From Propionibacteriaceae bacterium P6A17 (lineage in GTDB: Bacteria; Actinomycetota; Actinomycetes; Propionibacteriales; Propionibacteriaceae): DNA of 39,919 nt. Position 1 is the stretch's first letter. The number at the start of each line of letters is the position of its first letter. The notes under the pieces were generated by a model. That model saw nothing but the letters and a program-made list of their open reading frames with translations. It searched no databases and had not been told where the DNA came from. Location of the stretch: positions 1-39,919 of the forward strand of contig JHVD01000023.1 of the NCBI GenBank assembly GCA_000619965.1. The letters run 5' to 3'. The translations under genes and the position numbers were made by a program. Shown one piece after another: positions 10,262 through 35,915 of this stretch.

Positions 10262-11352
10262 CACGCACCCGCCTTCGCGAGCGCGGTGACCGCCGCGACG
10301 ATCCGCTCCAGATCACCCTGCGAGAGCGACGGGTGCACCGGCAGCGACAGGCACTCGCGTGCGGCCTGCTCGGTGCCCGGCAGCTCGACCGGCGACTGGA
10401 ACGGCTTCAGGCGGTGGTTCGGCACGGGGTAGAACATGCCCGAGCCAATGTTGTACTCCTCCTTCAGCGCCTTGGCCAGGCCGTCGCGGTCCTCGGCGAC
10501 GCGCACGGTGTACTGGTGGTACACGTGCACCGCGCCCTCGGCCACGGCCGGCACGATGACGCCCTCCAGATTGGCCGACAGGAAGGCCGCGTTGTCCTGG
10601 CGGGTCTTCGTCCAGGCATCCACCTTGGTGAGCTGTACGCGACCGATGGCGGCGTGGATGTCGGTCATGCGGTTGTTCAGGCCGACGACCTCGTTGTGGT
10701 ACTGCTGCAGCATGCCCTGATTGCGATACAGGCGCACGTTGCGCGCGATCGTCTCGTCCGCGCAGGAGACCATGCCGCCCTCGCCGGAGGTCATGTTCTT
10801 CGTCGGGTAGAGGGAGAACATCGCGAACGCGCCGAAGGCGCCGACGGGGGTGCCGTGCAGCGACGCGCCGTGGGCCTGCGCGGCATCCTCGAACAGCAGC
10901 AAGCCGTGCTTGTCGGCGATGGCGCAGAGCTGCTCCATCTTGGCCGGGTGGCCGTAGAGGTGCACCGGCATGATCGCCTTCGTGCGCTCGGTGATCGAGG
11001 CCTCGACTGAGGCCGGGTCGAGCGTGAAGTCGTCGAGCGCGATGTCGGCGAAGACCGGGGTGGCGCCGGTGAGGGCCACCGAGTTGGCCGTCGCGGCGAA
11101 CGTGAAGGACGGGACGATGACCTCGTCGCCAGCGCCGATGCCGTTGCTCAGCAGGCCCAAGTGCAGGCCGGAGGTGCCGGAGTTGACGGCGACGCAGGCG
11201 CGGCCGAGCTTGAAGTGCTCGGCGAATTCCTGCTCGAAGGCCGCTACCTCCGGGCCCTGGGCGATCATGCCGGAGCGCAGGACGCGGTCGACGGCCGCGC
11301 GCTCCTCGTCGCCGATGATCGGCTTGGCGGGCGGGATGAATGCTTCGGTCAT
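10261..11352 (-). CDS. DegT/DnrJ/EryC1-family aminotransferase, WlbC/WbpE-like
   Basis: The PLP enzyme is about 363 residues long. Motifs in order: GPEVAAFEQEFAEHF, CVAVNSGTSGLHLGL, VIVPSFTFAATANSV, LLLFEDAAQAHGAS (Asp that contacts the PLP nitrogen), and FSLYPTKNMTSGEGGMV with the Schiff-base Lys at about 185. Sugar aminotransferases of this family transfer an amino group from glutamate to a keto-sugar nucleotide. The coupled genes on either side (oxidoreductase, hexapeptide acyltransferase) suggest 3-amination of UDP-3-keto-GlcNAcA. AAGGAGG lies 4-5 nt before the ATG at 11352, and an ATG at 11355 directly precedes it. It overlaps both neighbours, in one operon. Confidence 0.88.
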   Translation of the reverse strand: MTEAFIPPAKPIIGDEERAAVDRVLRSGMIAQGPEVAAFEQEFAEHFKLGRACVAVNSGTSGLHLGLLSNGIGAGDEVIVPSFTFAATANSVALTGATPVFADIALDDFTLDPASVEASITERTKAIMPVHLYGHPAKMEQLCAIADKHGLLLFEDAAQAHGASLHGTPVGAFGAFAMFSLYPTKNMTSGEGGMVSCADETIARNVRLYRNQGMLQQYHNEVVGLNNRMTDIHAAIGRVQLTKVDAWTKTRQDNAAFLSANLEGVIVPAVAEGAVHVYHQYTVRVAEDRDGLAKALKEEYNIGSGMFYPVPNHRLKPFQSPVELPGTEQAARECLSLPVHPSLSQGDLERIVAAVTALAKAGA

Positions 11353-11954
11353 CATGCCTCCTTCACGAGGACGAGGGTTTCACCGGACTGTTCGAACTCG
11401 TCGCCGGTCTTGGGATCGCGGTAGGTGTTGTCGCCGGTCTGCTCGAGCGGGAAGCCGGAGCGGCCCACCCACTTGATGCGACGGGCGGGGACTCCGGCCA
11501 CGAGCGCGTAGGCGGGCACGTCGCGGGTCACGACGGAGCCGGCGGCGACCGTCGCCCACTCGCCGATGGTGACCGGCGCGACGCACACGGCACGGGCGCC
11601 GACGGAGGCGCCGTGCTTCAGCGTCACACCGACGGGCTCCCAGTCGTGGGCGCTCTTCGACGAGCCATCCGGGTTGCAGGCGCGCGGGAACGTGTCGTTG
11701 GTGAGCACGGCGGCGGGGCCGATGAACACCCCGTCCTCCAGATGCGCGGGCTCGTAGACCAGCGCGTAGTTCTGGATCTTGCAGTTGTCGCCGACGTGGA
11801 CCCCGCTGCCGATGTAGGCCCCCCGGCCCACGACGACGTTCTCGCCGATCCGGGCGCCCGCGCGCACCTGCGCGAGGTGCCAGATCGAGGAACCGTCGCC
11901 GATCGACACGTCGTCGTCGAGGTCCGCGGAGGGGAGGATTCTGGGCTCTGCCAT
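11352..11954 (-). CDS. Left-handed beta-helix N-acetyltransferase, WlbB/WbpD-like
   Basis: The 200-residue hexapeptide-repeat protein shows many [LIV]-G-x4 turns: ARIGENVVVGRGAYIGSGVH, CKIQNYALVYEPAHLEDGVF, then VTIGEWATVAAGSVVTRDVP. The segment IQNYALVYEPAHLEDGVFIG resembles WlbB/WbpD, which acetylates the 3-amino group of UDP-GlcNAc3NA with acetyl-CoA to give UDP-2,3-diacetamido-2,3-dideoxy-glucuronate. The C-terminal tail (YRDPKTGDEFEQSGETLVLV) is also typical of that subgroup. An 82-nt gap separates it from the upstream sugar transferase, and it is coupled to the aminotransferase downstream. A different acyl donor, such as an acyl-ACP, cannot be excluded. Confidence 0.87.
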   Translation of the reverse strand: MAEPRILPSADLDDDVSIGDGSSIWHLAQVRAGARIGENVVVGRGAYIGSGVHVGDNCKIQNYALVYEPAHLEDGVFIGPAAVLTNDTFPRACNPDGSSKSAHDWEPVGVTLKHGASVGARAVCVAPVTIGEWATVAAGSVVTRDVPAYALVAGVPARRIKWVGRSGFPLEQTGDNTYRDPKTGDEFEQSGETLVLVKEA

Positions 11955-12036
11955 AAGCGTGTGGTCTCCTAGCGCGATTGCCGCTCAGTCTAGTGTCTGC
12001 CGCCCGACGACGACGCCGCGCGGGGCCGCGAAGACC

Positions 12037-12633
12037 TCAATCGCGGACGATCGCCTGCACGGTGCGGACGATCACGCCGAGATCGCCAAGGAAGGAGCGG
12101 TTGCGCACGTAGTCGCGGTACATCGCCACCTTCTTCGGCAGGATCACCTCGACGTAGTGCCGCTCGGGGTCGTCGACGGCGGCCAGCTCCTCCTGCTCGT
12201 TGCGGAACGCGATCGCCGCCGGGTCGGAGATGCCGGGCCGGACGCTCAGGATCTCGCGGCGGGCCTCGTCGCCCCACAGCTCGACGTAGCGCGGCACCTC
12301 GGGGCGCGGGCCCACCACCGACATGTCGCCCAACAGCACGTCGATGAGTTGGGGGAGCTCGTCGAGCTTCGACTTGCGCAGGAAGGCCCCGACGGGTGTG
12401 ATGCGGGAGTCGTTGGCGCTGGTGACGAGCGCGCCCGCGCCCGCGACGCGCATCGAGCGGAACTTGTGGATGCGAAACACCTTGCCGTCCCGCCCGACGC
12501 GCTCCTGCCGGAAGAACACCGGCCCCTGGTCGTCGAGCTTGATCGCCACCGCCACCGCGAGGAACACGGGCGCGAGCACGACGAGTCCCGCGGCGGAAGA
12601 GACGACGTCGAACGCGCGTTTGGCCACGCTCAC
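12037..12633 (-). CDS. Initiating phosphoglycosyltransferase (bacterial sugar transferase, PglC-type short form)
   Basis: The protein has 198 residues. A single N-terminal membrane segment (FDVVSSAAGLVVLAPVFLAV, about 8-30) is followed by the cytosolic monotopic core: DDQGPVFFRQERVGRDGKVF, HKFRSM (about 57-61), the catalytic Asp-Glu pair in KLDELPQL (91-92), and VVGPRPEVPRYVE. It lacks the large N-terminal membrane domain of WcaJ/WbaP, so it resembles PglC, which moves phospho-diNAcBac or a related sugar to undecaprenyl phosphate and starts the repeat unit. The GTG start at 12633 overlaps the TGA of the aminotransferase upstream (GTGA), hence translational coupling. Confidence 0.9.
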   Translation of the reverse strand: MSVAKRAFDVVSSAAGLVVLAPVFLAVAVAIKLDDQGPVFFRQERVGRDGKVFRIHKFRSMRVAGAGALVTSANDSRITPVGAFLRKSKLDELPQLIDVLLGDMSVVGPRPEVPRYVELWGDEARREILSVRPGISDPAAIAFRNEQEELAAVDDPERHYVEVILPKKVAMYRDYVRNRSFLGDLGVIVRTVQAIVRD

Positions 12634-13778
12634 GCGAGGATCCCCGTCACTGCCTCGACGACGTGGTCGACGTCGTCGTCGGTCATGGAGGAGAAGATGG
12701 GCAGGCTCACACAGCGCTCGAACTGCGCCGAGGCGACGGGGAAGTCCTCGGGCGCATGGTGGTAGGTGTCGCGCCAGTAGGGCTGCAGGTGCAGCGGGAT
12801 GAAGTGGACGCTGGTGCCCACCCCGGCGTCGGCCATGCGCTGCACGAAGCCGTCGCGGCCGAGCGGCGCCTCGTCGGTGAGGCGCAGCACGTACAGGTGC
12901 CAGGAGTGCGTCGAGCCGTCGGGGGCGTGCGCGGGGAGGACGACGGGCAGGCCGGCGAAGGCCTCGTCGTAGCGGGCGGCGATCGCCGCGCGCTTGGCGG
13001 CCATTTCGTGCGAACGTTGGAGCTGCACCCTGCCCATCGCGGCGGCGGTGTCGGTGAGGTTGTACTTGTAGCCGGGGGCGACGACGTCGTAGTGCCAGCT
13101 CGGCTTCTTCGACGAGTAGCGGTCGAACACGTCGCGGTTGATGCCGTGGAGCCGCATGGTGCGCATCCGGGCCGCCAGCTCCGCATCGGGGGTGACGACC
13201 ATGCCACCCTCGCCGGTGGTCATCGTCTTGGTGGCGTAGAAGCTGTAGACGGTGGCGTCGTGCCCGTGCGCGCCGATCAGCGTGCCCTCGTTGAGCGTCG
13301 GGAACGAGTGGGCTGCGTCCTCGACGATCCGTAGCCCGTGGCGCTCGGCGAAGTCGGTGAGGGCGCCGTCGGGGACGCCCAGCCCGGCGAAGTGGACCGG
13401 GGCGATCGCGACGGTGCGCTCGGTGACCTTGCGCTCGGCGTCCGCCAGATCGATGCACAAGGTGAGCGGATCAACGTCGACCAGCACAGGGTCGCCGCCC
13501 AGGTAGCGCACCGCCTCGGCAGTGGATGTGAACGTCCAAGTGGGGACCAGCACCTCGGTGCCGGGTCGCACCCCGATCGCCTCGAACGCCAAGTGCAGGC
13601 CGGCCGTGGCGGAGTTGACGGCGATCGCTTCGGCGTCAGCGCCAAGGAACTCGACGAACTCCCGCTCGAAGGCGGCGCAGTTGGGGCCGGTGGTGAGCCA
13701 GCCGGAGCGCATCGTCGCGACGACGGCGGAGATCTCGGCCTCGGTGATGTCCGGGCGCGCGAAGGGAAGGAATGCCAC
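12630..13778 (-). CDS. DegT/DnrJ/EryC1-family aminotransferase, PglE/PseC-like
   Basis: The 382-residue PLP-dependent sugar aminotransferase reads MAFLPFARPDITEAEISAVV, AIAVNSATAGLHLAFEAIG, VLVPTWTFTSTAEAV, RIVEDAAHSFPT (Asp for the pyridine nitrogen) and YSFYATKTMTTGEGGMV with the Schiff-base Lys184. The N-terminal PfARPditeaEi pattern is common in enzymes that make 4-amino-4,6-dideoxy sugars. It is the first gene of the minus-strand operon, coupled to a PglC-type transferase, and divergent from a PglF/WbpM-type 4,6-dehydratase. The likely reaction is 4-amination of a UDP-4-keto-6-deoxy-HexNAc. No dedicated PglD acetyltransferase is adjacent. The hexapeptide protein at 11352 is one candidate. 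Confidence 0.88.
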   Translation of the reverse strand: MAFLPFARPDITEAEISAVVATMRSGWLTTGPNCAAFEREFVEFLGADAEAIAVNSATAGLHLAFEAIGVRPGTEVLVPTWTFTSTAEAVRYLGGDPVLVDVDPLTLCIDLADAERKVTERTVAIAPVHFAGLGVPDGALTDFAERHGLRIVEDAAHSFPTLNEGTLIGAHGHDATVYSFYATKTMTTGEGGMVVTPDAELAARMRTMRLHGINRDVFDRYSSKKPSWHYDVVAPGYKYNLTDTAAAMGRVQLQRSHEMAAKRAAIAARYDEAFAGLPVVLPAHAPDGSTHSWHLYVLRLTDEAPLGRDGFVQRMADAGVGTSVHFIPLHLQPYWRDTYHHAPEDFPVASAQFERCVSLPIFSSMTDDDVDHVVEAVTGILA

Positions 13779-22201: not shown

Positions 22202-23304
22202 CGGGCGCGGCGTGCCGCCCGAGCGCTGACCTCGAGCAGCGCCGGCACCTCGGCCTCGAAGTTGAACTCCTGCTCGATGGCGGCGCGCCCTCGACGGCCC
22301 ATCTCGGCCGCGCGCACTGGGTCGGCGACGAGTGCCGCGATCGCCTCGGCGGGGGCGGCGGCGGTCGTCGTGTCGACGAACACGCAGCAGTCGTGGCCGC
22401 CCAGGATGCGGCGCAGCCAAGGGAAGTCGCTCACCACGGCCGGGATGCCGGCGGCCATGTACTCGAACAGTTTCGTCGGCAGCGAATCGACGTAGTTGCC
22501 GAGCGGCTTCAGGAAGACCAGGCCGATGGAGCCGGACGCGACGATGCCGGGCACCTCCGTCGACGGCAGCATGCCCCGGTAGTCGATGCGCGGGTCGCCG
22601 GACTCGAGCAGGGGCCGGATGTCGTCGTCGGCCTTTCCCGCGACGAGCAGCGTGGCTCCCGGCACCTGGCGCACCGCGTCGATCATCACGTCGACCTGCC
22701 TGCCCTGCGAGAGCATCCCGACGTAGACCACCCGGCCCGGCACGTGCTCGGCCGACGAGGCCGGGTATTCGTGGAGGTACGGGTAGTTGTGGACGACGGC
22801 CCTGTTGGGGTTCGAGTAGAGGCCGGCGATGTGCTCGGTGGCCGCGACGATGCCGTCGAAGCCCTTGTCGGCGAGCTTCACCAGGCCTTTGGCGAGCAGC
22901 ATCGCGAGCGGATGCACGAGCCGCGGGATGTACGGCTTGTCGTCCATCTGACCGACGAGGTCCTCGTGGGCGTCGTAAATGGCCGCCTTGCGCCGGACGG
23001 ACTTCCACAGCCACACCATCGGGATCAGCTCCGGGTCGTGGACGTGTACCAGCGACGGGCGGACGCGCTCCAGCGCACGGAACGCGCGCCACTGCGCCTT
23101 CAAGCGTCCGACGATGCCACTCGCGGTGGACAGGCCCACCACCTCGACCCCGTCGACGACCTCGTCGTGCTCCTGCGCGCCCAGGAACCAGAGGTCGACG
23201 CCCGAGGCCGCCAAGGAGCGGCACTCCTTGTTGAAGATCCGGTTGTCCCGCGGCGGGTGGAGCGTCGAGAGGTGCGCGACGCGCCCGCGGATGGCCTTCG
23301 TCAA
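22198..23304 (-). CDS. Glycosyltransferase family 4
   Basis: The GT-B protein is about 368 residues long: RVAHLSTLHPPRDNRIFNKE at the N-terminus, LVHVHDPELIPMVWLWKS, then DAHEDLVGQ. The donor side has VYVGMLSQGRQVDVMIDAVR and PTKLFEYMAAGIPAVVSDFP, with the E of the sugar-nucleotide site. The start is a TTG at 23304 that overlaps the TGA of the dehydrogenase gene. No ATG or GTG is available before the first conserved strand, so coupling is likely. The GT probably uses a hexose or HexNAc derivative made by the locus, but the donor is not predictable. It overlaps the flippase start by 4 nt. Confidence 0.87.
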   Translation of the reverse strand: MTKAIRGRVAHLSTLHPPRDNRIFNKECRSLAASGVDLWFLGAQEHDEVVDGVEVVGLSTASGIVGRLKAQWRAFRALERVRPSLVHVHDPELIPMVWLWKSVRRKAAIYDAHEDLVGQMDDKPYIPRLVHPLAMLLAKGLVKLADKGFDGIVAATEHIAGLYSNPNRAVVHNYPYLHEYPASSAEHVPGRVVYVGMLSQGRQVDVMIDAVRQVPGATLLVAGKADDDIRPLLESGDPRIDYRGMLPSTEVPGIVASGSIGLVFLKPLGNYVDSLPTKLFEYMAAGIPAVVSDFPWLRRILGGHDCCVFVDTTTAAAPAEAIAALVADPVRAAEMGRRGRAAIEQEFNFEAEVPALLEVSARAARRAR

Positions 23305-24605
23305 CGCCGGCTCTCGCCGTCGCCGATCCGGAAGAAGCGCACGCCCTGCCAGCGGGCCTCGTCGAGCATGCCGCGGCCGTCGACGACGACGTGCAGGCCG
23401 GGCAGGCTCTCGGGGGTGAGCTCCTTGTACTCGGGGTGGTCGGCCTGGACGATCGCGACGTCGGCAGGCTCGCCCACGTGGTAGGCCTCGAACCCGTAGC
23501 GGGCGAGCTCGTCGTCGGTGAACATCGGGTCGTGCACCAGGACGCGGGCGCCGCGGGCGTGCAGGCCCTCGACCGTCGGGAACACGCCGGAGAACGCCGT
23601 CTCCTTCACCTTGCCGCGGTATGAGGCGCCGAGCACGACGACCGTCTTGCCCTCGAGCGAGCCGAGCGCGCCCTCGGCCAGCCCGATCGCGTACTCGGGC
23701 ATCGTCATGTTGGCCTCGCGGGCGGTGCGGACGATCGTCGCGTCGGGATCCGTGTAGAGGTACAGACGCGGGTAGACGGGGATGCAGTGGCCGCCGACGG
23801 CGATGCCCGGGCGGTGGATGTGGCTGTAGGGCTGCGAGTTGGAGGCGTCGATCACCTTGTGCACGTCGATGCCGTGCGCGGCGGCGAACTTGCCGAACTG
23901 GTTGGCCAGCCCGATGTTGACGTCGCGGTAGGTGGTCTCGGCGAGCTTCGCCATCTCGGCCGCCTCGGCGGTGCCCATGTCCCACACGCCGTTGCCGCGC
24001 GGGAGGTCGGGGCGCTCGTCGAACGTGAGGACCTGCTCGTAGAACTCGATGCCGCGACGTGTGCCCTCCTCGGAGAGGCCGCCGACGAGCTTCGGGTACT
24101 TGCGCAGATCCTCGAAGACGCGGCCGGTGAGGACGCGCTCGGGGGAGAACACGAGGTGGAAGTCGTTGCCCTCGACGAGGCCCGAGATCTCCTCGATCAT
24201 CGGCTTCCAGCGGCCGCGGGTGGTGCCGACGGGCAGCGTCGTCTCGTAGGAGACGAGGGTGCCGGGGGAGAGGTGCTCGGAGAAGCTGCGGGTGGCGTTC
24301 TCCATCCAGCCGAAGTCGGGCTGCCAGGTCTCGTCGTCGACGAACAGCGGTACGACGATGACGATCGCCTCCGCGCCGGGGATCGCGTCGGCGTAGTCGG
24401 TGGTGGCGCGCAGCTTGCCGGCGGGCACGAGCTCCTGCAGCTTCTCCTGCAGGTGCGCTTCACCCGGGAATGGCTCCTCGCCCGCGTTGACCTTGTCGAC
24501 GACGCTCTGCTGGACGTCCACGCCCACGACCTCGTGGCCCATGGAGGCGAACTGCACGGCCAGGGGCAGGCCGATCTTGCCCAAGGCAATGACTGCGATC
24601 TTCAT
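23301..24605 (-). CDS. UDP-N-acetyl-hexosamine 6-dehydrogenase (WbpA/WecC-like)
   Basis: The 434-residue protein of the UDPG/MGDP dehydrogenase family has a Rossmann start (IAVIALGKIGLPLAVQFASM), the SYETTLPVGTTRGRW segment, FSPERVLTGRVFEDLRKYPK, and GGHCIPVYPRLY with catalytic Cys274. A C-terminal domain follows (VVVLGASYRGKVKETAFSG). The FSPERVLTG form is typical of enzymes that oxidise UDP-GlcNAc or UDP-ManNAc to the uronic acid in two NAD-dependent steps. It supplies the substrate for the oxidoreductase/aminotransferase/acetyltransferase set at 9269-11954. RBS AAGGA lies 6 nt before the ATG. It sits in the ABC-transporter operon. Confidence 0.9.
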   Translation of the reverse strand: MKIAVIALGKIGLPLAVQFASMGHEVVGVDVQQSVVDKVNAGEEPFPGEAHLQEKLQELVPAGKLRATTDYADAIPGAEAIVIVVPLFVDDETWQPDFGWMENATRSFSEHLSPGTLVSYETTLPVGTTRGRWKPMIEEISGLVEGNDFHLVFSPERVLTGRVFEDLRKYPKLVGGLSEEGTRRGIEFYEQVLTFDERPDLPRGNGVWDMGTAEAAEMAKLAETTYRDVNIGLANQFGKFAAAHGIDVHKVIDASNSQPYSHIHRPGIAVGGHCIPVYPRLYLYTDPDATIVRTAREANMTMPEYAIGLAEGALGSLEGKTVVVLGASYRGKVKETAFSGVFPTVEGLHARGARVLVHDPMFTDDELARYGFEAYHVGEPADVAIVQADHPEYKELTPESLPGLHVVVDGRGMLDEARWQGVRFFRIGDGESRR

Positions 24606-27255: not shown

Positions 27256-28124
27256 CACAGCGGGGGCCTGCCGAGCTTCGTCATGGTCCAGACCGTGCGC
27301 CACGAGATGGGTTCGCGTGCGCGCGGTGCCCGCTGGGAAAGCCCGGCACGGAGCCCCTCCCAGATCACCTTGACCTGCTTCGGCGACCGGGCCCGCAGCA
27401 GCGTCGCGCCCGTCCACACCGCGAGGTAGAGCGGCAGGATGGGAGCGGGCAGGTTGCGCTTGGCCACCCACACGCGGTTGCGCATCGTCGTGAAGAAATG
27501 GTGCGAGTGCCGGGCGGCTGCCGTCGCGGGGTGGTGGACGACGATGTCGGGGGCGTACACGATGCGCCATCCGCGGTCGATGAGGCGCATTGCCATGTCC
27601 GTGCCCTCGTGACCGAAGAACAGCTCGGCGTACCAGCCATCGACCTGGTCGAACGCCTCCCGACGAAATAGCGCCATCGCCTCCCAGAACACCGCGACGT
27701 CGCCCCCGAGCATCTCGTTTGACTTGCGCAGTCGTGGCACCCAACGGCGAGGGCTCGGCGCCCCCGACGGGTCGGCGCCCCGGGCCTGCACGACGCCGAC
27801 ATCGGGGCCACAGCGGGCCACCATGCGGGCCAGGGTGTCGGGGGAGGGGAGGGCGCCGTCATCGTCGTAGAAGAACAGGAACTCGCCCTTGACGAGGGCT
27901 GCAGCCAGATTGCGGCCGCCTGGACAGCCGAGATTGTCGGGGGAGTGGAAGGTGCGGACCCAGCTCGGAATGCCTTCCGGGTCCCAGCCGTTGCCGACGA
28001 GGACCACGTCCATGTCGACGCCCTGCTGCGCCTCGAGCGCCCGCAATGCGGCGGCGAGCTCCGCCGGGCGATTGCCCATGCTCAGTAGGGCAACGCCCAC
28101 GGTGGGCAGCGAATCCTGCGACAT
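27252..28124 (-). CDS. Glycosyltransferase family 2
   Basis: The 290-residue GT-A enzyme has VGVALLSMGNRPAELAAALR, LGCPGGRNLAAALVKGEFLF, FYDDDGALPS with the metal/nucleotide-binding Asp residues, and WYAELFFGHEGTDMAMRLID (ED-like base region). A short C-terminal membrane-associated helix (LYLAVWTGATLL) is possible. The ATG at 28124 has GGAGG 5 nt upstream, while an in-frame GTG at 28130 falls inside that site. It is the first gene of the operon that runs through the PolyST-like transferase, ABC exporter, dehydrogenase, GT4 and flippase. The donor is unknown. Confidence 0.88.
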   Translation of the reverse strand: MSQDSLPTVGVALLSMGNRPAELAAALRALEAQQGVDMDVVLVGNGWDPEGIPSWVRTFHSPDNLGCPGGRNLAAALVKGEFLFFYDDDGALPSPDTLARMVARCGPDVGVVQARGADPSGAPSPRRWVPRLRKSNEMLGGDVAVFWEAMALFRREAFDQVDGWYAELFFGHEGTDMAMRLIDRGWRIVYAPDIVVHHPATAAARHSHHFFTTMRNRVWVAKRNLPAPILPLYLAVWTGATLLRARSPKQVKVIWEGLRAGLSQRAPRAREPISWRTVWTMTKLGRPPLW

Positions 28125-28178
28125 TCGCACCTCCTCTGCTTCCGCCCAAGCCTACTGGGGTTGGTTCGGCCCGCCCGT

Positions 28179-28496
28179 CGAGACGTGCCGATGGACCCGA
28201 TCGGTGGGTCCGCCCGGAGGCGGTGTTCGAGGGGTGTGCGGCCTTCGCATGTTCGTCGAGTAGGTGAGGCTTCGCCTCGCGTATCGAGACGTGCTGATGG
28301 ATTCGGTCGGTGGGCCCGGTCGGAGGCGGTGTTCGAGGGGTGTGCGGCCTTCGTATGTTCGTCGAGTAGGGGAGGCTTCGCCTCGCGTATCGAGACGTGC
28401 TGATGGATTCGGTCGGTGGGCCCGGTCGGAGGCGGTGTTCGAGGGGTGTGCGGCCTTCGTATGTTCGTCGAGTAGGTGAGGCTTCGCCGCACGTAT
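28179..28496. repeat. Three tandem 106-bp repeats with an internal hairpin
   Basis: The start CGAGACGTG recurs at 28179, 28285, 28391 and 28497, exactly 106 bp apart. Units two and three are almost identical; the first differs at some positions, and only the beginning of a fourth is present. Each unit ends in GTTCGTCGAGTAGG, then a GAGGC-TTC-GCCTC hairpin (changed in the last copy) and GTATCGAGAC. This core is the inverse of the one at 7210-7388. No coding sequence is credible in 28125-28774. Confidence 0.85.
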
Positions 28497-28554
28497 CGAG
28501 ACGTGCTGGGGATCGGCTGGGGAGTGTCTCGTGGTTTCGACTGGTCCGCTGCGC

Positions 28555-28777
28555 GGACCGCTCAACCATCGGGGTCCTGGACCGCTCAACCATCGGGGTA
28601 CTGGACCGCTCAACCATCGGGGTACTGGACCGCTCAACCAGCCGGGGTGCCGGACCGCGCAACCATGGGGGCTTCACCGCTCAACCAGTCGAGGTGCCGG
28701 ACCGCCCAACAATGGGGGCTTCACCGCTCAACCAGTCGAGGTGCCGGACCGCCCAACAATGGGGGCTTCACCGCTCA
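28555..28777. repeat. 24-bp tandem repeats (x4) followed by 47-bp tandem repeats
   Basis: GGACCGCTCAACCATCGGGG-type units begin at 28555, 28579, 28603 and 28627 (period 24, the fourth 25 bp). Units of 47 bp then begin at 28652, 28699 and 28746. The last copy overlaps the stop codon of the minus-strand gene at 28775. A hairpin GGTCCGC-TGC-GCGGACC precedes the array near 28543-28559. There are no unique spacers between copies, so it is not a CRISPR array. Confidence 0.85.
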
Positions 28778-29149
28778 ATCAGCCATGGAGACGAGTCGCC
28801 CGCAGCAGACCACGGCGTCCCCGACGACGAACTGCGCCACCTCCACGTGCCCAGGCTCTGGGGAGCCCAACAGACCCCGGCCGAGTAGCGTCAGCACCGG
28901 GGTGTCGGTGAGCTTTGCCACCACTTCGAGCCTCGTCCAGGCCCGCCAGAAGTCCTCGTCGGAAGTCAGGCGGGCAGCGAGCGCGGGAGGCGGGGTCGTC
29001 GAGCGCTCGACGTCGAGCGCTCCCCAGCCGGGGGCGCGGAGACACCAGCGGGTGTCGTCGGAGGTGTAGGAGTGGATGAGGGTGCAGCCGTCGGGACAGG
29101 GCAGGTCCCGACGGCTGCGGATCAGGTGTTGCTCAGATGGAGCCGCCAC
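28775..29149 (-). CDS. 4'-phosphopantetheinyl transferase-like protein (short)
   Basis: The protein is about 124 residues long. WGALDVERSTTPPP matches the first PPTase motif (G-x-D-v/i-E, the Mg-binding acidic pair) and FWRAWTRLEVVAKLT matches the second (W-t-x-k-E-a-x-x-K), with Leu in place of the usual Lys before Glu. It is shorter than Sfp (about 220) and close to AcpS (about 120) in length. PPTases attach the phosphopantetheine arm of CoA to the serine of carrier proteins. Here an ACP gene lies three genes upstream in the same operon, the expected client. The GTG at 29149 overlaps the SDR gene by 17 nt. No ribosome-binding site is seen, so coupling is assumed. The stop codon lies within a tandem repeat copy. 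Confidence 0.6.
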   Translation of the reverse strand: MAAPSEQHLIRSRRDLPCPDGCTLIHSYTSDDTRWCLRAPGWGALDVERSTTPPPALAARLTSDEDFWRAWTRLEVVAKLTDTPVLTLLGRGLLGSPEPGHVEVAQFVVGDAVVCCGRLVSMAD

Positions 29150-29876
29150 CGTCGATGACGAGCGTCTGTCCGTTGACGTTGGTGTCCTCGAAGAGCAGGG
29201 TGTCCAGGACGGGCACGACATCGCTGGGCTCCACCAGCCTCCCTGTGGGGGTGCGGCGGGTGATCGTGTCGAGCTGCGTCTGGCCGAGCACCGAGCTCAT
29301 CTCGGATGCGAAGAAGCCGGGGGCAATCGAGTTGCACAGCACTCGGCCGTGCATCTCGCGCGCGATGGTGCGCATGGCGGAGTCCAGCCCGCCCTTCGTC
29401 GATGAGTAGGCGACGAGCCCCGCGTAGCCGCGCTGGGCGCAGATGGAGGTGATGAACACGATGCGGCCGGTCCCGCGGCCGGCCATGATGCGCCGCAGCA
29501 CCGTACGGGTGAGGATCAGGGGCGCGGTCAGGTTCGTCTGGATGATCTGCTCGATGCGCTCCGGAGAGGTGTGCACATGCAGGGAATCCTGGCCGATGGC
29601 TGCGTTGTTGACGAGGCCGTCGATCGGTCCCAGCTTGCGCTCGGCCTCCTTGACGAACGCATTCAGTGCCTTCGTGTCGGTGGCATCGACGGACGCGACG
29701 TGGACCCGCTCGGGGTACTGCGCGGCGAGCTGCTCGAGCTCCGGGGTGATCGTGCGGGCAAAGGTGGCCACCTTGGCGCCGCGGTCGAGGATGGACTGCA
29801 CGATGGCGAGGCCCAATCCGCGCGAGCCGCCGGAGACGACCACGCAGGAGGCAGCTGCAATGGGTGGGTTAGACAT
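29133..29876 (-). CDS. SDR-family oxidoreductase (3-oxoacyl-ACP reductase-like)
   Basis: The 247-residue classical short-chain dehydrogenase has the cofactor motif VVVSGGSRGLGLAIV (TGxxxGxG type, with GGSRGLG favouring NADPH) and VNNAAIG (90-94). Catalytic Ser144 lies in VFITSICAQ, and Tyr157 and Lys161 lie in AYSSTKGG. The C-terminal GQTLVIDGGGSI is usual for FabG-like reductases. With an ACP and an acyl ligase in the same operon, reduction of a 3-oxoacyl-ACP to a 3-hydroxyacyl-ACP is a reasonable inference. A sugar or alcohol substrate is possible. It overlaps the ligase gene by 8 nt. Confidence 0.88.
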   Translation of the reverse strand: MSNPPIAAASCVVVSGGSRGLGLAIVQSILDRGAKVATFARTITPELEQLAAQYPERVHVASVDATDTKALNAFVKEAERKLGPIDGLVNNAAIGQDSLHVHTSPERIEQIIQTNLTAPLILTRTVLRRIMAGRGTGRIVFITSICAQRGYAGLVAYSSTKGGLDSAMRTIAREMHGRVLCNSIAPGFFASEMSSVLGQTQLDTITRRTPTGRLVEPSDVVPVLDTLLFEDTNVNGQTLVIDGGGSI

Positions 29877-31098
29877 CGGACTTCAGGCTCTCCTTCAAGG
29901 GGATTTCGTCGAGAATGCGCACTCGACGCGGCACCTCCGTCTCTGCGAGGTGCTCGGTGGCGTAGCGGATGATGTCGTCCTCGGTGAGCGACTCGTCGTC
30001 GAGGACGACGGAGGCTTGCACCATGTTGCCGACGATGGGCGCCTTGCGGGCCTTGATCGCAGCCCAGGCGATCCCGGGGTGCTCGAGGAGAACGCTCCGC
30101 ACCTTTCCGGCGGACACCTTGGTGCCGCCCACGTTGATCTCGTCCGAGCCGAGCCGCCCGGTGATGTGGACCCGGCCGTCGCGGATCTCCACGCGGTCTC
30201 CTGTGCGGAGGACCTCGTCCACGCCCGAGCCGCGGTGCGGCGAGGCGATCAACAGCTCGTCGCCGTCGACGCTGAGCTGCGGACGGCCCTCCTTGTGGGA
30301 GTCCAGCCACTCGACGGGGAAGCCGGCCTTCCCGTCGTGGACCGCGATGCTGGCGCCGGCCTCGGAAGAGGCGTAGATCCACGAGACGCGCGTGTCCGGG
30401 AACGTCTGGTGGAGGAGATCGATCACCGCCTGATCCACGGGCTCACCGCCGAGGGTGATCTGCTTGAAGCGCACGCGGGCGAGCTCATCGCGCTGGGTGA
30501 GCAGTGCTTGGCGCCAGAACGTGGGGGTGCCGGACGCGGCGTCGACCCCGTACTTGGCCGCCTGTTCGGCCCACGGGTGGCCGCCGTCGACACACACCAT
30601 GGACGTACCGGGGTGGGCCAGCGCGAGCGTCGTGACCTGCCACCACGCGTAAGCGCCGGGGGTGTAGGGGTTGAGCCAAGTGCGAGGGGGCTGCTTGCCG
30701 CGCACGGTGAGCAGCGTGTCGAGCGTGTGGCCCACCTGCTTCGGGCGGCCAGTGGAGCCGGAGGTGAGCAGCCAGACGCGCCCGGGGCGAGTGGTGCGCT
30801 GCTCCGTGGGCTCCGCCACGATCTCCCCGTCGGCCACGATGGTCAGTCCGAGGTCCAGGAGATCCTGCTCGAGTCCGGGCTCCCGTCGGGATGCCGCAGC
30901 GACGAGCAACTCGCGCTGGTGCTGGCGCTGATGCCACACCGCTCGCAAGGCCTCAAGGTCATCACGGACGAACACCGCTGCACGATCCGGGAGCGTGATG
31001 GGAGGCAGTTCGGCCCACGAGCCGTCGAAGTCGCCGGCGACGATGCGGTTTTCGGCGCTCAGCGGCGGTCTTGGCGTGTCGGGGTGATCGAACGTCAT
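29869..31098 (-). CDS. AMP-forming acyl ligase (acyl-ACP synthetase candidate), short form
   Basis: The 409-residue member of the ANL superfamily has P-loop LTSGSTGRPK (about 111-120), YASSEAG (A5), LRTGDRVE (A7), GRLGSDEINVGGTKVS (A8 hinge) and PLKESLKSDV with the A10 catalytic Lys near the end. It is about 100-130 residues shorter than most acyl-CoA synthetases because the N-terminal region before the P-loop is compact, as in some dedicated acyl-ACP ligases. The enzyme would adenylate a carboxylic acid and load it on the ACP encoded just upstream. The ATG overlaps the ACP stop (ATGA) and the stop overlaps the SDR gene. The acid cannot be predicted. Confidence 0.85.
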   Translation of the reverse strand: MTFDHPDTPRPPLSAENRIVAGDFDGSWAELPPITLPDRAAVFVRDDLEALRAVWHQRQHQRELLVAAASRREPGLEQDLLDLGLTIVADGEIVAEPTEQRTTRPGRVWLLTSGSTGRPKQVGHTLDTLLTVRGKQPPRTWLNPYTPGAYAWWQVTTLALAHPGTSMVCVDGGHPWAEQAAKYGVDAASGTPTFWRQALLTQRDELARVRFKQITLGGEPVDQAVIDLLHQTFPDTRVSWIYASSEAGASIAVHDGKAGFPVEWLDSHKEGRPQLSVDGDELLIASPHRGSGVDEVLRTGDRVEIRDGRVHITGRLGSDEINVGGTKVSAGKVRSVLLEHPGIAWAAIKARKAPIVGNMVQASVVLDDESLTEDDIIRYATEHLAETEVPRRVRILDEIPLKESLKSDV

Positions 31099-31349
31099 GC
31101 TTGCTGCTGCAGCTCGTCGATGAAGTCGAGGACGTCCGCGACGGTGCGAATCGTCCGCAGCCCGGGTGCGTCGAAGTTGAGCTCTTCGTCCAGTTCGTCC
31201 TCGACACGGAGCGCGAGCTCCGAGAAGTCGAGCGAGCGGAAGCCGATCTCGTCGAGCGCGGTGTCTTCGGAGGAGGGCATCTCCTTGTCCTGGCGGCGGA
31301 GCACCTCGGCCATCATTTCCTTGACCTGTTCGCGGCTCAACTGGGCCAT
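31095..31349 (-). CDS. Acyl carrier protein with an RSL (not DSL) phosphopantetheine motif
   Basis: The 84-residue acidic protein has the PP-binding pattern MAQLSREQVKEMMAEVL, DEIGFRSLDFSELALRVEDE and TVADVLDFIDELQQQ. Ser39 is the expected phosphopantetheine site. The residue before it is Arg instead of the almost invariant Asp of the G-x-D-S-L motif. AAGGAG lies 5 nt before the ATG at 31349, which favours this start over a GTG at 31355. It is first in an operon with an acyl ligase, an SDR and a PPTase-like gene. The carrier would hold the acyl group during activation and reduction. Confidence 0.88.
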   Translation of the reverse strand: MAQLSREQVKEMMAEVLRRQDKEMPSSEDTALDEIGFRSLDFSELALRVEDELDEELNFDAPGLRTIRTVADVLDFIDELQQQA

Positions 31350-31391
31350 CTTCACTCCTTGGCTGGTTGGGATGCTGGATTGGCTTGGGCC

Positions 31392-31397
31392 AGTCTA
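31392..31397 (-). promoter_or_regulatory. Possible -10 box of the ACP operon
   Basis: On the minus strand TAGACT lies about 43 nt upstream of the ATG at 31349. The leader carries the AAGGAG site. No -35 match is seen. The rest of 31398-31586 shows nothing I can name. Confidence 0.35.
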
Positions 31398-31586
31398 CTC
31401 GCGCCGTGCCCTCGGGTGCCCGATCCGCGCCCGAGCGTCCAGGCGGCGCGGCACTGGGGCGTGACGGAGTGACGTCCAGTTGCGCACAGCGGGCGCGACA
31501 CGCCGGGGGCGGATCATCTGGCGTTCAATCTGTCACGCGACCACCCTGCCGGGGGCCGACAGATTCACGTCGTGCTCCCGGATGAT

Positions 31587-31623
31587 GCAGCGAGGGGGCC
31601 CGTCATACGGGCCCCCTCGCTGC
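31587..31623 (-). terminator. 16-bp perfect hairpin after the Excalibur repeat protein
   Basis: GCAGCGAGGGGGCCCG (31587-31602) pairs perfectly with its complement at 31608-31623 around a TCATA loop, 21 nt beyond the stop at 31644. There is no T-run, but the stem is very strong. A similar hairpin follows the next gene. Confidence 0.65.
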
Positions 31624-31643
31624 GCTGCTGGATCGGCTGCGTG

Positions 31644-32708
31644 TCAGCGGGTCTCGCAAGCGACGCCGTCGCCGTCGCGGTCGAGATGCGGACCGTAGCC
31701 GGGTTGACCGCGATACAGCGGGGCCTTGCCGGCTGCGCGAACGGCGTCGCAGTTCGGGTAGTAGACCTCGGAAGTGGAGGTTCGAGTCATCCGGAAGTTG
31801 TTGGAGTAGACGTTGCGGCCACCAGCGCGGACGCCGACACGATACGTGGTGGTGCCCACGGTGTTGACGCCGTAGGTGAGCGGGATGATGAAGTTGCCGG
31901 AACCGTCGGTGGTGCGCTGCTGCGACTTCGACCAGCCCGTGGCGACGAGGACCTCGGTCCACACCGGCGCATTCGGGGCGCCCTTCGCGGTGCCCCAGGT
32001 ATTGGTGACTTGTCCGACGGGCTTGGTGCCGGCGCTGTACGCGGTGACCGTGACGGAGGGGGCGGTACGCGTGACCGAGAAGGTGTTCGAGTAATACGTG
32101 CGGCCCGCGGCGCGGACGCCCACGCGATAGGTGGTGGTGCCGACGATCGTGGTGCCGTAGGTGAGCGGGATGACGAAGCTGCCGGAACCGTCGGTGGTGC
32201 GCTCCTGCGACTTCGACCAACCTGACCCGATCAGCACCTCAGTCCAGGCCGGGGCATTCGGGGCGCCCTTCGCGGTGCCCCAAGTGTTGGTGGCTTGTCC
32301 GACGGGCTTGGTGCCGGCGCTGTACGCGGTGACCGTGACGGAGGGGGCCGTACGCAGCAGGTCGAACGGTGCCGAGTAGACGACGCCCTCCGTCGCTCGG
32401 ACGCCGACGCGGTACGTGGTGACGCCCTCGGTGTTCGTGCCGTAGGTGAGCGGGATGACGAAGTTGCCGGACCCGTCGGTCTGCCGGACCTGTGAGCGGG
32501 ACCATCCCGTAGGGAGCAGGACTTCGGTCCAGATCTCGGCCTGTGGGGCCTCGGTGGCGGTGCCCCAAGTGTAGGTCGTCTGTCCCACTGTCTTGGTGCC
32601 CGCCGAATAAGCGTAGACAGTGGTGGCGGCTCGTGCCGGCAACGTCCATGCGGACACGCTGAGTAACAACGTGACGAGCAACGCCGTCATTCTGCGCAAC
32701 TTGGACAT
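31644..32708 (-). CDS. Secreted protein: three about 90-residue repeats plus C-terminal Excalibur domain
   Basis: The protein is about 354 residues long. A signal peptide (MSKLRRMTALLVTLLLSVSA, cleavage near PARA-AT) is followed by three repeats of about 90 residues. Each has the pattern SAGTKxVGQxTxTWGTA, WTEV, GWSKSQxRTTDGSG, FxIPLTYG, TTTYRVGVRA. The last 39 residues form an Excalibur domain (YYPNCDAVRA...LDRDGDGVACETR) with paired cysteines and a calcium-loop-like DRDGDG. The repeats look like Ig-like beta-sandwich units but I do not recognise a named family. The ATG at 32708 has GGAGG 5 nt upstream. It is probably a cell-wall-associated or extracellular protein, and the same repeat occurs in the Rpf-type protein at 33031. 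Role unknown. Confidence 0.8.
   Translation of the reverse strand: MSKLRRMTALLVTLLLSVSAWTLPARAATTVYAYSAGTKTVGQTTYTWGTATEAPQAEIWTEVLLPTGWSRSQVRQTDGSGNFVIPLTYGTNTEGVTTYRVGVRATEGVVYSAPFDLLRTAPSVTVTAYSAGTKPVGQATNTWGTAKGAPNAPAWTEVLIGSGWSKSQERTTDGSGSFVIPLTYGTTIVGTTTYRVGVRAAGRTYYSNTFSVTRTAPSVTVTAYSAGTKPVGQVTNTWGTAKGAPNAPVWTEVLVATGWSKSQQRTTDGSGNFIIPLTYGVNTVGTTTYRVGVRAGGRNVYSNNFRMTRTSTSEVYYPNCDAVRAAGKAPLYRGQPGYGPHLDRDGDGVACETR
31969..32355. repeat. Internal DNA repeat in the Excalibur repeat gene
   Basis: A segment of about 102 bp at 31969-32070 recurs at 32254-32355, 285 bp (95 codons) away, with only a few changes. It marks recent duplication of repeats two and three. The first repeat and those in the neighbouring gene are more diverged. 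Confidence 0.8.
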
Positions 32709-32977
32709 GGGGACCTCCGTTGGTCGGGTGGAACACAATCGCCGGGCCTTGTTGGCGGGAACAACACGTGCCCTTGGATGATCGCAGGATAGTCCGAGGC
32801 GCTTCGTGCCGTATACCTAGGGGCCCGGTTTGGGCAGGGCTGTTGACCTGAAGGAGACTCTTTCGCTTTACGAGAGGCGAGGGTTGGAGCCGATGAACGC
32901 GACACCCCGCAGGTGCTGCGCAGAGAGGCCCCAATCATGCGGGGACAGCCACGCGCTGACGGATTGCCGCGTGACAG

Positions 32978-33030: not shown

Positions 33031-34203
33031 TCAGGCGCACGACCACGGCTGGAAGCCGCGCAAGTCGTGGAGCCTGTTGGCCACGGTGATCTGCTCGTCG
33101 CGCGTGGCCTGATGCGGGTACGTCGCGAAGTCGCCGCCATCAACTGAGTGCCAGGTCTGGTAGTTGAACTGCAGGCCACCGTAGTAGCCGTTGCCGGTGT
33201 TGATCGACCAGTTGCCACCCGATTCGCACTGCGCGATGCGGTCCCAGGTGGCCGCCATTGAGAGGTCCAGCGGGAGGCCCTCGCGGGTCAGCGTGAAGGG
33301 ATTGGATCTGACGACGCCGAGTGACGTACTTGCGGCGACGCGGAAGGTGTATGTGCCGGCGGTGGCCTTGCCAAACGTGAGTGGGATGGAAAACGAGCCG
33401 TTGGTGCCGGTGGTCCGCTGCTGCGACTTCGCCCACGATCCATCGGGAAGCTTCACCTCGGTCCACACCGAGCGAGACAGGGCTCCGTGGGCAGTGCCCC
33501 ACGTGTAGGAGTCCACTCCGGTGCGAGTCTTGCCCGCCGACGTGGCGGTGACCCAGCCGGTACGGGTGAGAACGAACTCGTTCGAGCGGACGATTCCCGT
33601 CGCGGTGCTGGCGGCGACTCGATAGGTGTACTTGCCCGCAACGTTGGAGCCGTAGGTCAGCGGGATGGAATATCCGCCGGACGAGCTGGCGGTGCGTTGC
33701 TGTGATTTCACCCACCGCCCATCAGACATTCGGACCTCGGTCCACACTGGGCGGTTCGCGGCACCGTGGGCTGTGCCCCACGCGTTGGTGGCGAGACCGG
33801 CCTGCTTCGTGCCGGCGGACGCACTCGACACCCATCCCGTGCGGGTGAGAGTGAGGGTCGCGGAGCGCACAACGCCCGCCGGGGTGCTCGCCGCTACGCG
33901 CCAAGTGGTGGTGCCCGCGACGTTGGACCCGTAGGTCAGCGGAATGACGTACGTGCCGTCGGCTGCAGCGGTGCGCTGCTGGGACTTGGACCAGGAGCCG
34001 TCGGCAAGTCGTACTTCCGTCCAGACGGCCCGGCCCTCCGCGCCCAGGGCCGTACCCCACACATTGGCGGTGACATCGACGCGGGTGGTCCCTGCGGAGC
34101 TCGCCGTCACAGTGGCCGCCGAGGCCGGGGTGATGGTGGCTGGGGCGACGAGCGCGGCGGCTGCTGCGAGGACCATGAGCGCTTTCAAACGCCAGTTGGG
34201 CAT
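33031..34203 (-). CDS. Secreted resuscitation-promoting-factor-type transglycosylase with three repeat domains
   Basis: The 390-residue protein has a signal peptide (MPNWRLKALMVLAAAAALVA, cleavage near ASA-AT). Three repeats of about 92 residues (NxWGTAxGA, WTEV, GxWxKSQQRT, xIPLTYGSNVAG, YRVAAS, VRSNxFxLTRxG) occupy about 32-310. The C-terminal 78 residues are an Rpf catalytic domain: ATWDRIAQCESGGNWSINTG with catalytic Glu327, then YYGGLQFNYQTWH. Rpf domains are lysozyme-like and cleave peptidoglycan, acting in regrowth and cell-wall remodelling. The usual G5/DUF348 or LysM partners are replaced by the repeats shared with the gene at 31644. GGGAGAAGG lies about 8 nt before the ATG. It is divergent from the GNAT gene. 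Confidence 0.88.
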   Translation of the reverse strand: MPNWRLKALMVLAAAAALVAPATITPASAATVTASSAGTTRVDVTANVWGTALGAEGRAVWTEVRLADGSWSKSQQRTAAADGTYVIPLTYGSNVAGTTTWRVAASTPAGVVRSATLTLTRTGWVSSASAGTKQAGLATNAWGTAHGAANRPVWTEVRMSDGRWVKSQQRTASSSGGYSIPLTYGSNVAGKYTYRVAASTATGIVRSNEFVLTRTGWVTATSAGKTRTGVDSYTWGTAHGALSRSVWTEVKLPDGSWAKSQQRTTGTNGSFSIPLTFGKATAGTYTFRVAASTSLGVVRSNPFTLTREGLPLDLSMAATWDRIAQCESGGNWSINTGNGYYGGLQFNYQTWHSVDGGDFATYPHQATRDEQITVANRLHDLRGFQPWSCA

Positions 34204-34367: not shown

Positions 34368-34859
34368 ATGCTTCGCCCTGCAACTGATGCCGATCTCGAT
34401 GCGATGCGTCGTTGGCGCAACCACGACGAGGTCCGCCGCGTCTCGCTCACGCAACACGAAATCAGCGCCGATGAGCACGCCGCCTGGTGGGAGAAGACGA
34501 AGTCCGACGAGACCCGTCGCGTCCTCATCTATGAGCGTGACGGAGTGCCGTCGGGTGTTGTCACCTTCTTCGACATGACGGACGGCAAGGCCTGGTGGGG
34601 GTACTACTTGGACAATGATGGGCTCGCTGAGCGTGGCGCGATGTTCCCGGCTTGGATTTCCATCCAGCGCGAGGCTGTCAGGTACGCACGCAAGGAGCTC
34701 GGGCTCACGCAGCTCGACGGCGAGACGCTCGTTGCAAACGAGTCGGCCGTCGACTTCAACGCGCGACAGGGTTTCCGCGAAGTTGAGCGATACGCTCGCG
34801 AGGTGGGTGGACAGACCGTCGAGGTCATCCACTCGCGCAAGATCTTTGAAGGGAAGTAG
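34368..34859 (+). CDS. GNAT N-acetyltransferase, PseH-like
   Basis: The 163-residue protein reads MLRPATDADLDAMRRWRNHD, EVRRVSLTQHEISADEHAAW, then GVVTFFDMTDGKAWWGYYLD and TLVANESAVDFNARQGFREV. The WRNHxEvR and I-x-x-x-E-H-x-x-W motifs are those of PseH-type enzymes, which N-acetylate UDP-4-amino-4,6-dideoxy sugars from acetyl-CoA in pseudaminic-type nonulosonate synthesis. It stands 3 nt before the PseI-like synthase gene, which supports that role. GAGGAGG precedes the ATG. The other early enzymes (PseB, PseG, PseF) are not seen in the window. Confidence 0.78.
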   Translation: MLRPATDADLDAMRRWRNHDEVRRVSLTQHEISADEHAAWWEKTKSDETRRVLIYERDGVPSGVVTFFDMTDGKAWWGYYLDNDGLAERGAMFPAWISIQREAVRYARKELGLTQLDGETLVANESAVDFNARQGFREVERYAREVGGQTVEVIHSRKIFEGK

Positions 34860-34862
34860 CAG

Positions 34863-35915
34863 ATGGCCAAGTCAATCTCGATCAGTGGCGTGCCCGTCGG
34901 GTCGGAGGCAGACCCGTTCATCATCGCCGAGATGAGTGGCAATCACAACGGTGACCTCCAACGAGCGCTGGATATCGTCACGATGGCTGCGGAAGCGGGG
35001 GCGCACGCCATCAAGCTGCAGACCTACACGGCAGACACCATCACCATCGACGCGGACACCCCGAGCTTCCGCCTCTCGGACGGTCACGAGCTGTGGGGAG
35101 GGCGGCGTCTCTACGACCTCTACGACGAAGCCCACACGCCGTGGGAGTGGCACGAGAAGATCTTTGCGCATGCTGCTGACAAGGGCATCCTCGCGTTCTC
35201 GTCGCCCTTCGACCCGACTGCCGTCGCCTTCCTTGAGGGCCTTGGTGCTCCGGCGTACAAGGTGGCGAGCTCCGAGATCGTCGACCTGCCGCTGATCCGC
35301 GCCATGGCCGAGACCGGCAAGCCGATCATCATTTCCACCGGCATGGCATCGATTGCCGAGATCGACGACGCGGTGAAGGCTGCGCGCTCGACGGGCAACG
35401 AGCAGATCGTCGTGCTGTCCTGCACGGCTGATTACCCGGCGGACCCGGCGTCGGCCAACCTGCGCTCGATCCCGGTGCTGGCCAACGCGTTCGACGTGCT
35501 TGTGGGGCTGTCCGACCACACGATGGGCATCGGTGTGCCGGTGGCGTCGATTGCGTTCGGCGCGGTGCTCGTTGAGAAGCACGTCACGTTGTCGCGCGGT
35601 GACGGCGGTGTCGACTCGGCGTTCTCGCTGGAGCCTGACGAGCTCGCCGCGATGGTCCGCGAGACCGCGATCGCCCGTCAGGCGCTCGGCGAGGCCCGGA
35701 TCGGCGCGAAGGAGTCCGAGCGCGAAGGGCTCCGGTTCCGTCGCTCGCTGTTCGTGACGCGCGACGTCAAGGCAGGGGAGCTGGTGGGCCCCGACAACGT
35801 CCGTTCGATCCGGCCCGCAGGTGGCCTGATGCCCGACGAGTTCAAGAACGTTGAGGGCCGGGAATTCCGCGTCGACGCAGTCAAGGGCACTCCGCTCACA
35901 TGGGATTTGCTTTGA
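34863..35915 (+). CDS. pseI: Nonulosonic acid synthase, PseI/NeuB-family
   Basis: The 350-residue protein has a TIM-barrel NeuB domain (PFIIAEMSGNHNGDLQRALD, AIKLQTYTADTITID, AFSSPFDPTAVAFLEGL, APAYKVASSEIVDLPLI, KPIIISTGMAS, VLSCTADYPADP, GLSDHTMGIG, VEKHVTLSRGDGGVDSAFSL). A C-terminal SAF/antifreeze-like domain follows (RSLFVTRDVKAGELVGPDNV). The LYDLYDEAHTPWEWHEKIF stretch is typical of pseudaminic acid synthase rather than sialic or legionaminic synthases. It would condense a 6-deoxy-diacetamido-hexose with phosphoenolpyruvate to a 9-carbon acid. It overlaps the frame of the next gene by 16 nt. The specific product (Pse or a relative) is inferred. Confidence 0.85.
   Translation: MAKSISISGVPVGSEADPFIIAEMSGNHNGDLQRALDIVTMAAEAGAHAIKLQTYTADTITIDADTPSFRLSDGHELWGGRRLYDLYDEAHTPWEWHEKIFAHAADKGILAFSSPFDPTAVAFLEGLGAPAYKVASSEIVDLPLIRAMAETGKPIIISTGMASIAEIDDAVKAARSTGNEQIVVLSCTADYPADPASANLRSIPVLANAFDVLVGLSDHTMGIGVPVASIAFGAVLVEKHVTLSRGDGGVDSAFSLEPDELAAMVRETAIARQALGEARIGAKESEREGLRFRRSLFVTRDVKAGELVGPDNVRSIRPAGGLMPDEFKNVEGREFRVDAVKGTPLTWDLL

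Follow-up and report, generated by a model that had tools for sequence, protein, structure and literature searches.

What does a compact set of acyl-carrier genes do inside a bacterial surface-glycan locus? We addressed this question in a 39,919-nucleotide stretch of Propionibacteriaceae bacterium P6A17 (contig JHVD01000023.1), analyzed over its full length and hereafter called the window. There, four genes encode an acyl carrier protein (ACP), a short AMP-forming ligase, a FabG-like short-chain dehydrogenase/reductase (SDR) and a miniature phosphopantetheinyl transferase (mini-PPTase), and genes of the pseudaminic acid (Pse) pathway lie a few kilobases away (Table 1). From sequence and genome context, an unusual organic acid is probably loaded on the small carrier and passed to Pse. 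We consider it likely that the four genes form an acyl relay of the Pse pathway, with a PseH-like GNAT protein receiving the acyl-ACP.

The four genes run head to tail on the minus strand from 31349 to 28775 and overlap by 4, 8 and 17 nt, confirming the four overlapping genes described in an earlier note on this DNA. An AAGGAG motif precedes the ACP start codon, and a scan of 28100-31800 for promoters and terminators found none. Pfam matches above cut-off were obtained for the ACP, the ligase and the SDR. The ACP carries the attachment motif GFRSLDFSEL, with Arg instead of Asp before the serine, and this motif, including the phosphopantetheine serine S39, is invariant across 29 aligned sequences. 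The ligase has the P-loop, adenylation motifs and C-terminal catalytic lysine of the ANL superfamily, which we take to be TSGxTGRPK, YASSE, TGD, GR and K406; none of them varies in 18 aligned sequences, and Lys406 lies three residues ahead of the C-terminus. Its closest solved relatives (malonyl-CoA ligase, DHB ligase and beta-aminoacyl-ACP synthetase) were considered as guides to the acid, but they score alike, mostly through the C-terminal domain, and no acid was deduced from them. The best NCBIfam model for the SDR is 3-oxoacyl-ACP reductase (TIGR01830; 159.3 bits, under the cut-off of 297.75), and the generic catalytic N, S, Y and K are kept in at least 97% of 84 homologues. A role in anti-phage defense was discarded, as PADLOC returned no match for any of the four proteins.

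Table 1. Genes of the proposed acyl relay and of the neighboring Pse pathway in the window
Feature	Coordinates	Strand	Evidence
Acyl carrier protein (ACP), 84 residues	31095..31349	-	PF00550, 31.6 bits vs cut-off 20.8
Short AMP-forming acid:ACP ligase (putative), 409 residues	29869..31098	-	PF00501 and PF13193 above cut-off
FabG-like short-chain dehydrogenase/reductase (SDR)	29133..29876	-	PF00106, 151 bits
Miniature Sfp-like phosphopantetheinyl transferase (mini-PPTase), 124 residues	28775..29149	-	Fold comparison and motif
PseH-like GNAT, proposed acyltransferase for acyl-ACP	34368..34859	+	TIGR03585, 83.9 bits, cut-off 93.1
Pseudaminic acid synthase PseI	34863..35915	+	TIGR03586, 452.8 bits, cut-off 340.25; PF03102, PF08666

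The fourth protein required a different approach. At E<=1, neither Pfam nor NCBIfam gives a match to the mini-PPTase, and the sole PF01648 (ACPS) match in the genome of the window sits on another contig. As a profile search of the PDB with the mini-PPTase alignment gave only chance matches, we turned to fold comparison, whose 25 best matches cover 103-118 of the 124 residues with an Sfp-type PPTase fold. D46, E48, E75 and K79 are invariant across 26 sequences and fit the D-x-E and E metal ligands and the catalytic K of what we presume to be the Sfp-type motif. The fold and the D-x-E, W, E, K pattern are thus common to Sfp, PptT, PptAb and the mini-PPTase, which differs in its length (124 residues vs ~200-280 in solved Sfp-type chains, at 6-16% identity) and, unlike Sfp-type PPTases, has no Pfam ACPS match. 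Between its gene and the next glycosyltransferase gene, positions 28131-28774 hold stacked direct repeats with units of 106, ~24 and 47 nt.

To see what accompanies the set, we compared the window with 80 named loci (the best 80 of 158 places with a ligase relative) and four loci from the same family, 85 loci in all. Genes were counted by six-frame profile searches with score limits of our own, in fetched flanks extending at most ~10 kb from the ligase. In 82 of the 85 loci, the genes for ACP, ligase and SDR directly follow one another on a single strand. The ACP and the SDR are each present in 84, the GNAT in 80 and PseI in 73, while PseB (43/85), PseC (41/85), PseG (42/85) and the cytidylyltransferase (37/85) are found less often within these flanks. 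In all 80 loci that carry it, the GNAT gene points away from the ACP gene, at no more than 1 kb in 55 of them, and 34 of the 73 loci with PseI have it immediately next to the GNAT gene in the same orientation. For 10 of the 12 loci that miss PseI, it is encoded elsewhere in the genome; the L062 and L091 genomes yielded none, and L091 is an orphan ligase with neither ACP, SDR nor GNAT. Rather than occurring mostly away from glycan loci, a distribution that would speak against the earlier note, the set accompanies PseI in 83 of the 85 ligase genomes. Across the loci, no elements are as constant as the relay genes, the GNAT and PseI. The mini-PPTase was counted locally in 60/85 loci, and in 53 by another count. 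Both figures understate its presence: L117 and L118 were scored absent, although it is encoded at a greater distance in the respective genomes, G022 and G076.

A short AMP-forming ligase with a single carrier is also the arrangement of DltA and DltC. In a D-alanylation-like system, the acid that the ligase puts on the carrier would be an amino acid destined for a wall polymer, and the SDR would serve sugar metabolism independently. An amino acid adenylation model does match the ligase, at 56 bits against a cut-off of 317, but the DltA model is absent from the 25 best of 77 NCBIfam matches, a scan of 34 genes out of the 37 called in the window gave no MBOAT protein, and the presence of the SDR in all but one of the loci makes it an integral part of the set. 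We regard such a system as improbable.

We further investigated the distribution of the ligase in 197 genomes of the family and in a class-wide sample of 394 genomes. The ligase is found in 10 family genomes (at least 460 bits, the next best genome scoring below 46), and the mini-PPTase in exactly the same 10, by a search that scored only the 20 best first-look candidates per genome; the match in G128 is partial and lies at a contig end. PseI is above cut-off in 15 of the 197, including all 10 ligase genomes (Fisher p 1.6e-13, kinship ignored). In the class sample, 7 genomes have the ligase, 20 have PseI and 6 have both (Fisher 5.3e-8, kinship again ignored); PseI is not listed for the seventh ligase genome, G216, where the ligase contig spans 5,873 bases. 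The closest named relative found for the ligase, 82% identical, is from Tessaracoccus oleiagri, which probably places the window in or close to this genus. This distribution bears on another explanation, in which the set would be a small lipid or secondary-metabolite operon hitchhiking with glycan genes. ACP, FabG-like SDR, ligase and PPTase are indeed typical of lipid and polyketide clusters as well. However, PseI is encoded in 83/85 ligase genomes vs 20/394 in the class sample, and neither a ketosynthase nor a thioesterase was found among the 34 scanned window genes, a search that covered the window alone. We consider hitchhiking very unlikely.

Which enzyme would receive the acyl group? Three acceptors had been proposed, and the locus comparison retains one, the GNAT at 34368. 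The other two, the hexapeptide protein (11352) and the AT3-SGNH protein (5130), are each alone in their cluster, with no relatives in the other 84 loci; this is a weak test, because the flanks reach at most ~10 kb and both genes lie farther off in the window. The GNAT stays under the curated cut-off (83.9 of 93.1 bits; 88.0 for its L038 homologue) of PseH, the UDP-4-amino-4,6-dideoxy-N-acetyl-beta-L-altrosamine N-acetyltransferase, and no other PseH-like match in its genome exceeds 25 bits. Its profile matches in the PDB include PseH (4xpk, 4ri1) and, in third place, FdhC (5kta), the latter solved with CoA and a 3-hydroxybutanoylamino sugar. The remainder of the PseB/C/G/I pathway is encoded in the same genome: PseI adjoins the GNAT, and contig C6 carries PseB (above cut-off), PseC (421.6 vs 423.5 bits) and PseG (117.7 vs 153.55 bits). 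This PseG (L128:7588-9555) continues at its C-terminus into an aldo-keto-reductase-like domain (KidO model, 55 bits) and adjoins PseB, PseC, an SDR and a KdsB-like cytidylyltransferase. In comparison with PseH, the donor loop is altered: RGxG is absent from 28 of the 30 linked GNATs that were aligned out of 80, while in ligase-free pse loci it is kept in 6 of 7 readable PseH domains, the seventh reading RGQN.

The GNAT could nevertheless be an ordinary acetyl-CoA-dependent PseH that merely shares the locus, with the relay acylating another position of the same polymer, by O-acylation or at N5, its other amino group. Its score near the PseH cut-off and its structural closeness to acetyl-CoA enzymes fit this view, as does the same GNAT type without a ligase in L195 and L201. 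Other candidate partners exist too: an AT3 acyltransferase family distinct from the AT3-SGNH of the window is near the set in 22/85 loci, and two conserved families of ~280 and ~600 residues are found in 60/85 and 52/85. Yet the GNAT, at 80/85, exceeds all three, and the loss of the RGxG loop in 28 of the 30 aligned GNATs speaks against an ordinary PseH. We therefore see acylation elsewhere on the polymer as unlikely, though less so than the two alternatives above, and retain the GNAT as the favored acceptor of the acyl-ACP.

L195 and L201 combine the GNAT subfamily with a full pse cluster in genomes that have no ligase of this family. The vicinity of L195 includes open reading frames (ORFs) with sulfotransferase-like and CDP-alcohol phosphatidyltransferase-like Pfam matches, and L201 has ORFs that correspond to them in size and position. 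The ~280- and ~600-residue families (L038:5195-6046 and L051:4603-6420) adjoin pse genes, also occur in the ligase-free pse loci L195 and L203, and have no convincing Pfam, NCBIfam or PDB match; they are possibly enzymes of Pse transfer or of the polymer.

The relay that we propose would work as follows. The mini-PPTase would turn the dedicated ACP into its holo form, and the ligase would adenylate a small free acid and load it on the ACP. The SDR would then reduce the acyl chain at a keto function, in the simplest case from 3-keto to 3-hydroxy. Finally, the GNAT would take the chain off the ACP and attach it to the PseB/PseC product, at its 4-amino group. In the Pse pathway, the 4-amino group of the PseC product ends as N7 of Pse. 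Through PseG, PseI and the cytidylyltransferase, the acyl group would thus become the N7 substituent of Pse in a surface glycopolymer of these actinobacteria. While the genes, their families, their co-occurrence and their linkage are observed here, we infer the loading of the ACP by the ligase, the reduction, the hydroxylation of the acyl group, its transfer from the ACP by the GNAT, the acceptor nitrogen, the acid and the kind of polymer. For the acid, only the FabG-like SDR and the precedents discussed below point to a 3-keto or hydroxy compound. The core of the interpretation in the earlier note, a free acid feeding an acyl-ACP for the acylation of a glycan amino sugar, has gained strong support from genome context, and the interpretation as a whole partial support. 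In its most specific form, the system would be an insulated actinobacterial Pse relay, with a private ACP (GFRSL), an equally private, Pfam-dark Sfp-like PPTase of 124 residues and a short ligase for a free acid, in which PseH would have switched its donor from acetyl-CoA to acyl-ACP to yield N7-hydroxyacyl Pse in surface glycopolymers and leave fatty acid synthesis untouched; on this version we are evenly divided.

The expected linkage to ABC exporters was not borne out. The two ABC exporter families of the window have relatives in 7/85 loci each and were set aside as constant neighbors, compared with 19/85 for its GT2 and 20/85 for a weakly polysialyltransferase-like protein. The neighbor clusters require 32% identity and 60% coverage and would miss distant ABC exporters; for the other loci, the remaining exporter types and wzx/wzy lay outside the comparison. 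The window itself encodes a Wzx-like protein and two Wzy_C proteins. Two genes (31644-32738 and 33031-34203) are inserted between the relay and the GNAT-PseI pair; their products, an internally repetitive Excalibur protein and a protein resembling transglycosylases, fall in one sequence cluster. Farther away, 9269-13778 and 23301-24605 encode a Gfo/Idh/MocA oxidoreductase, two DegT-type aminotransferases, the hexapeptide protein, a sugar-1-phosphate transferase and a nucleotide-sugar dehydrogenase; the hexapeptide, Gfo/Idh/MocA and DegT genes resemble a WbpB/E/D-type set for a diacetamido sugar, and the group as a whole resembles one for a diacetamido-uronic acid. An integrase-core (rve, HTH_21) transposase-like ORF lies near the contig start (269-1030), and a protein at 2557-3441 combines a GmrSD C-terminal domain (72 bits) with an Excalibur domain (58 bits).

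Teichulosonic acids are described as wall polymers of some actinobacteria, including Kribbella and Streptomyces coelicolor, the latter with the nonulosonic acid Kdn, in the passages concerned (PMC6113628, PMC7831098). If unusual N-acyl groups decorate Pse in such wall polymers, this gene set would offer their genetic basis and a genome marker for producer strains. Glycoengineering would then also gain two tools, a minimal pair of PPTase and carrier and a sugar GNAT that depends on acyl-ACP.

No description of this actinobacterial gene set was recognized in the open-licence literature searched, while two Gram-negative systems resemble it. The relevant passages on the viosamine island of P. syringae pv. 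tabaci 6605 describe acp, vioS, vioR and vioB and the product N-3-hydroxybutyryl viosamine; deletion of vioR, a 3-oxoacyl-ACP reductase, abolishes the modified viosamine, as seen with the mutant and mass spectrometry (PMC3927599). Like the window, the island unites an ACP, a 3-oxoacyl-ACP reductase and an amino-sugar N-acyltransferase. As described there, its chain comes from a KAS III (vioS), whereas the window has an AMP-forming ligase in that place and no ketosynthase among its scanned genes. The island serves dTDP-viosamine and Gram-negative flagellin, and the window set, as we propose, Pse and an actinobacterial surface polymer; a PPTase is absent from the seven genes named for the island, in contrast to the mini-PPTase here. 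Its authors also considered dTDP-N-acetoacetylviosamine (PMC3927599), so reduction after transfer is possible in the Pse relay too.

The second system is the group II island of Aeromonas, reported in the passages at hand to carry an ACP, a 3-oxoacyl-ACP reductase, an AMP synthetase, PseH and pse genes, the same combination as in the window, together with luxC and luxE; a PPTase is not named in those passages (PMC7874193). There, the flagellin of A. piscicola AH-3 bears a Pse derivative of 376.14 Da, which the authors would explain by a liposugar rather than by N-acylation (PMC7874193). By our arithmetic, this mass equals a Pse5Ac7Ac residue (316.13) plus C2H4O2, and one dihydroxybutanoyl or two glyceroyl groups replacing acetyl would give it. 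Altogether, Gram-negative flagellin already offers a known case of glycan amino sugars that are N-acylated from an ACP, and the set described here differs in a ligase that replaces the ketosynthase, a dedicated Pfam-dark mini-PPTase, a proposed Pse acceptor and an actinobacterial setting.
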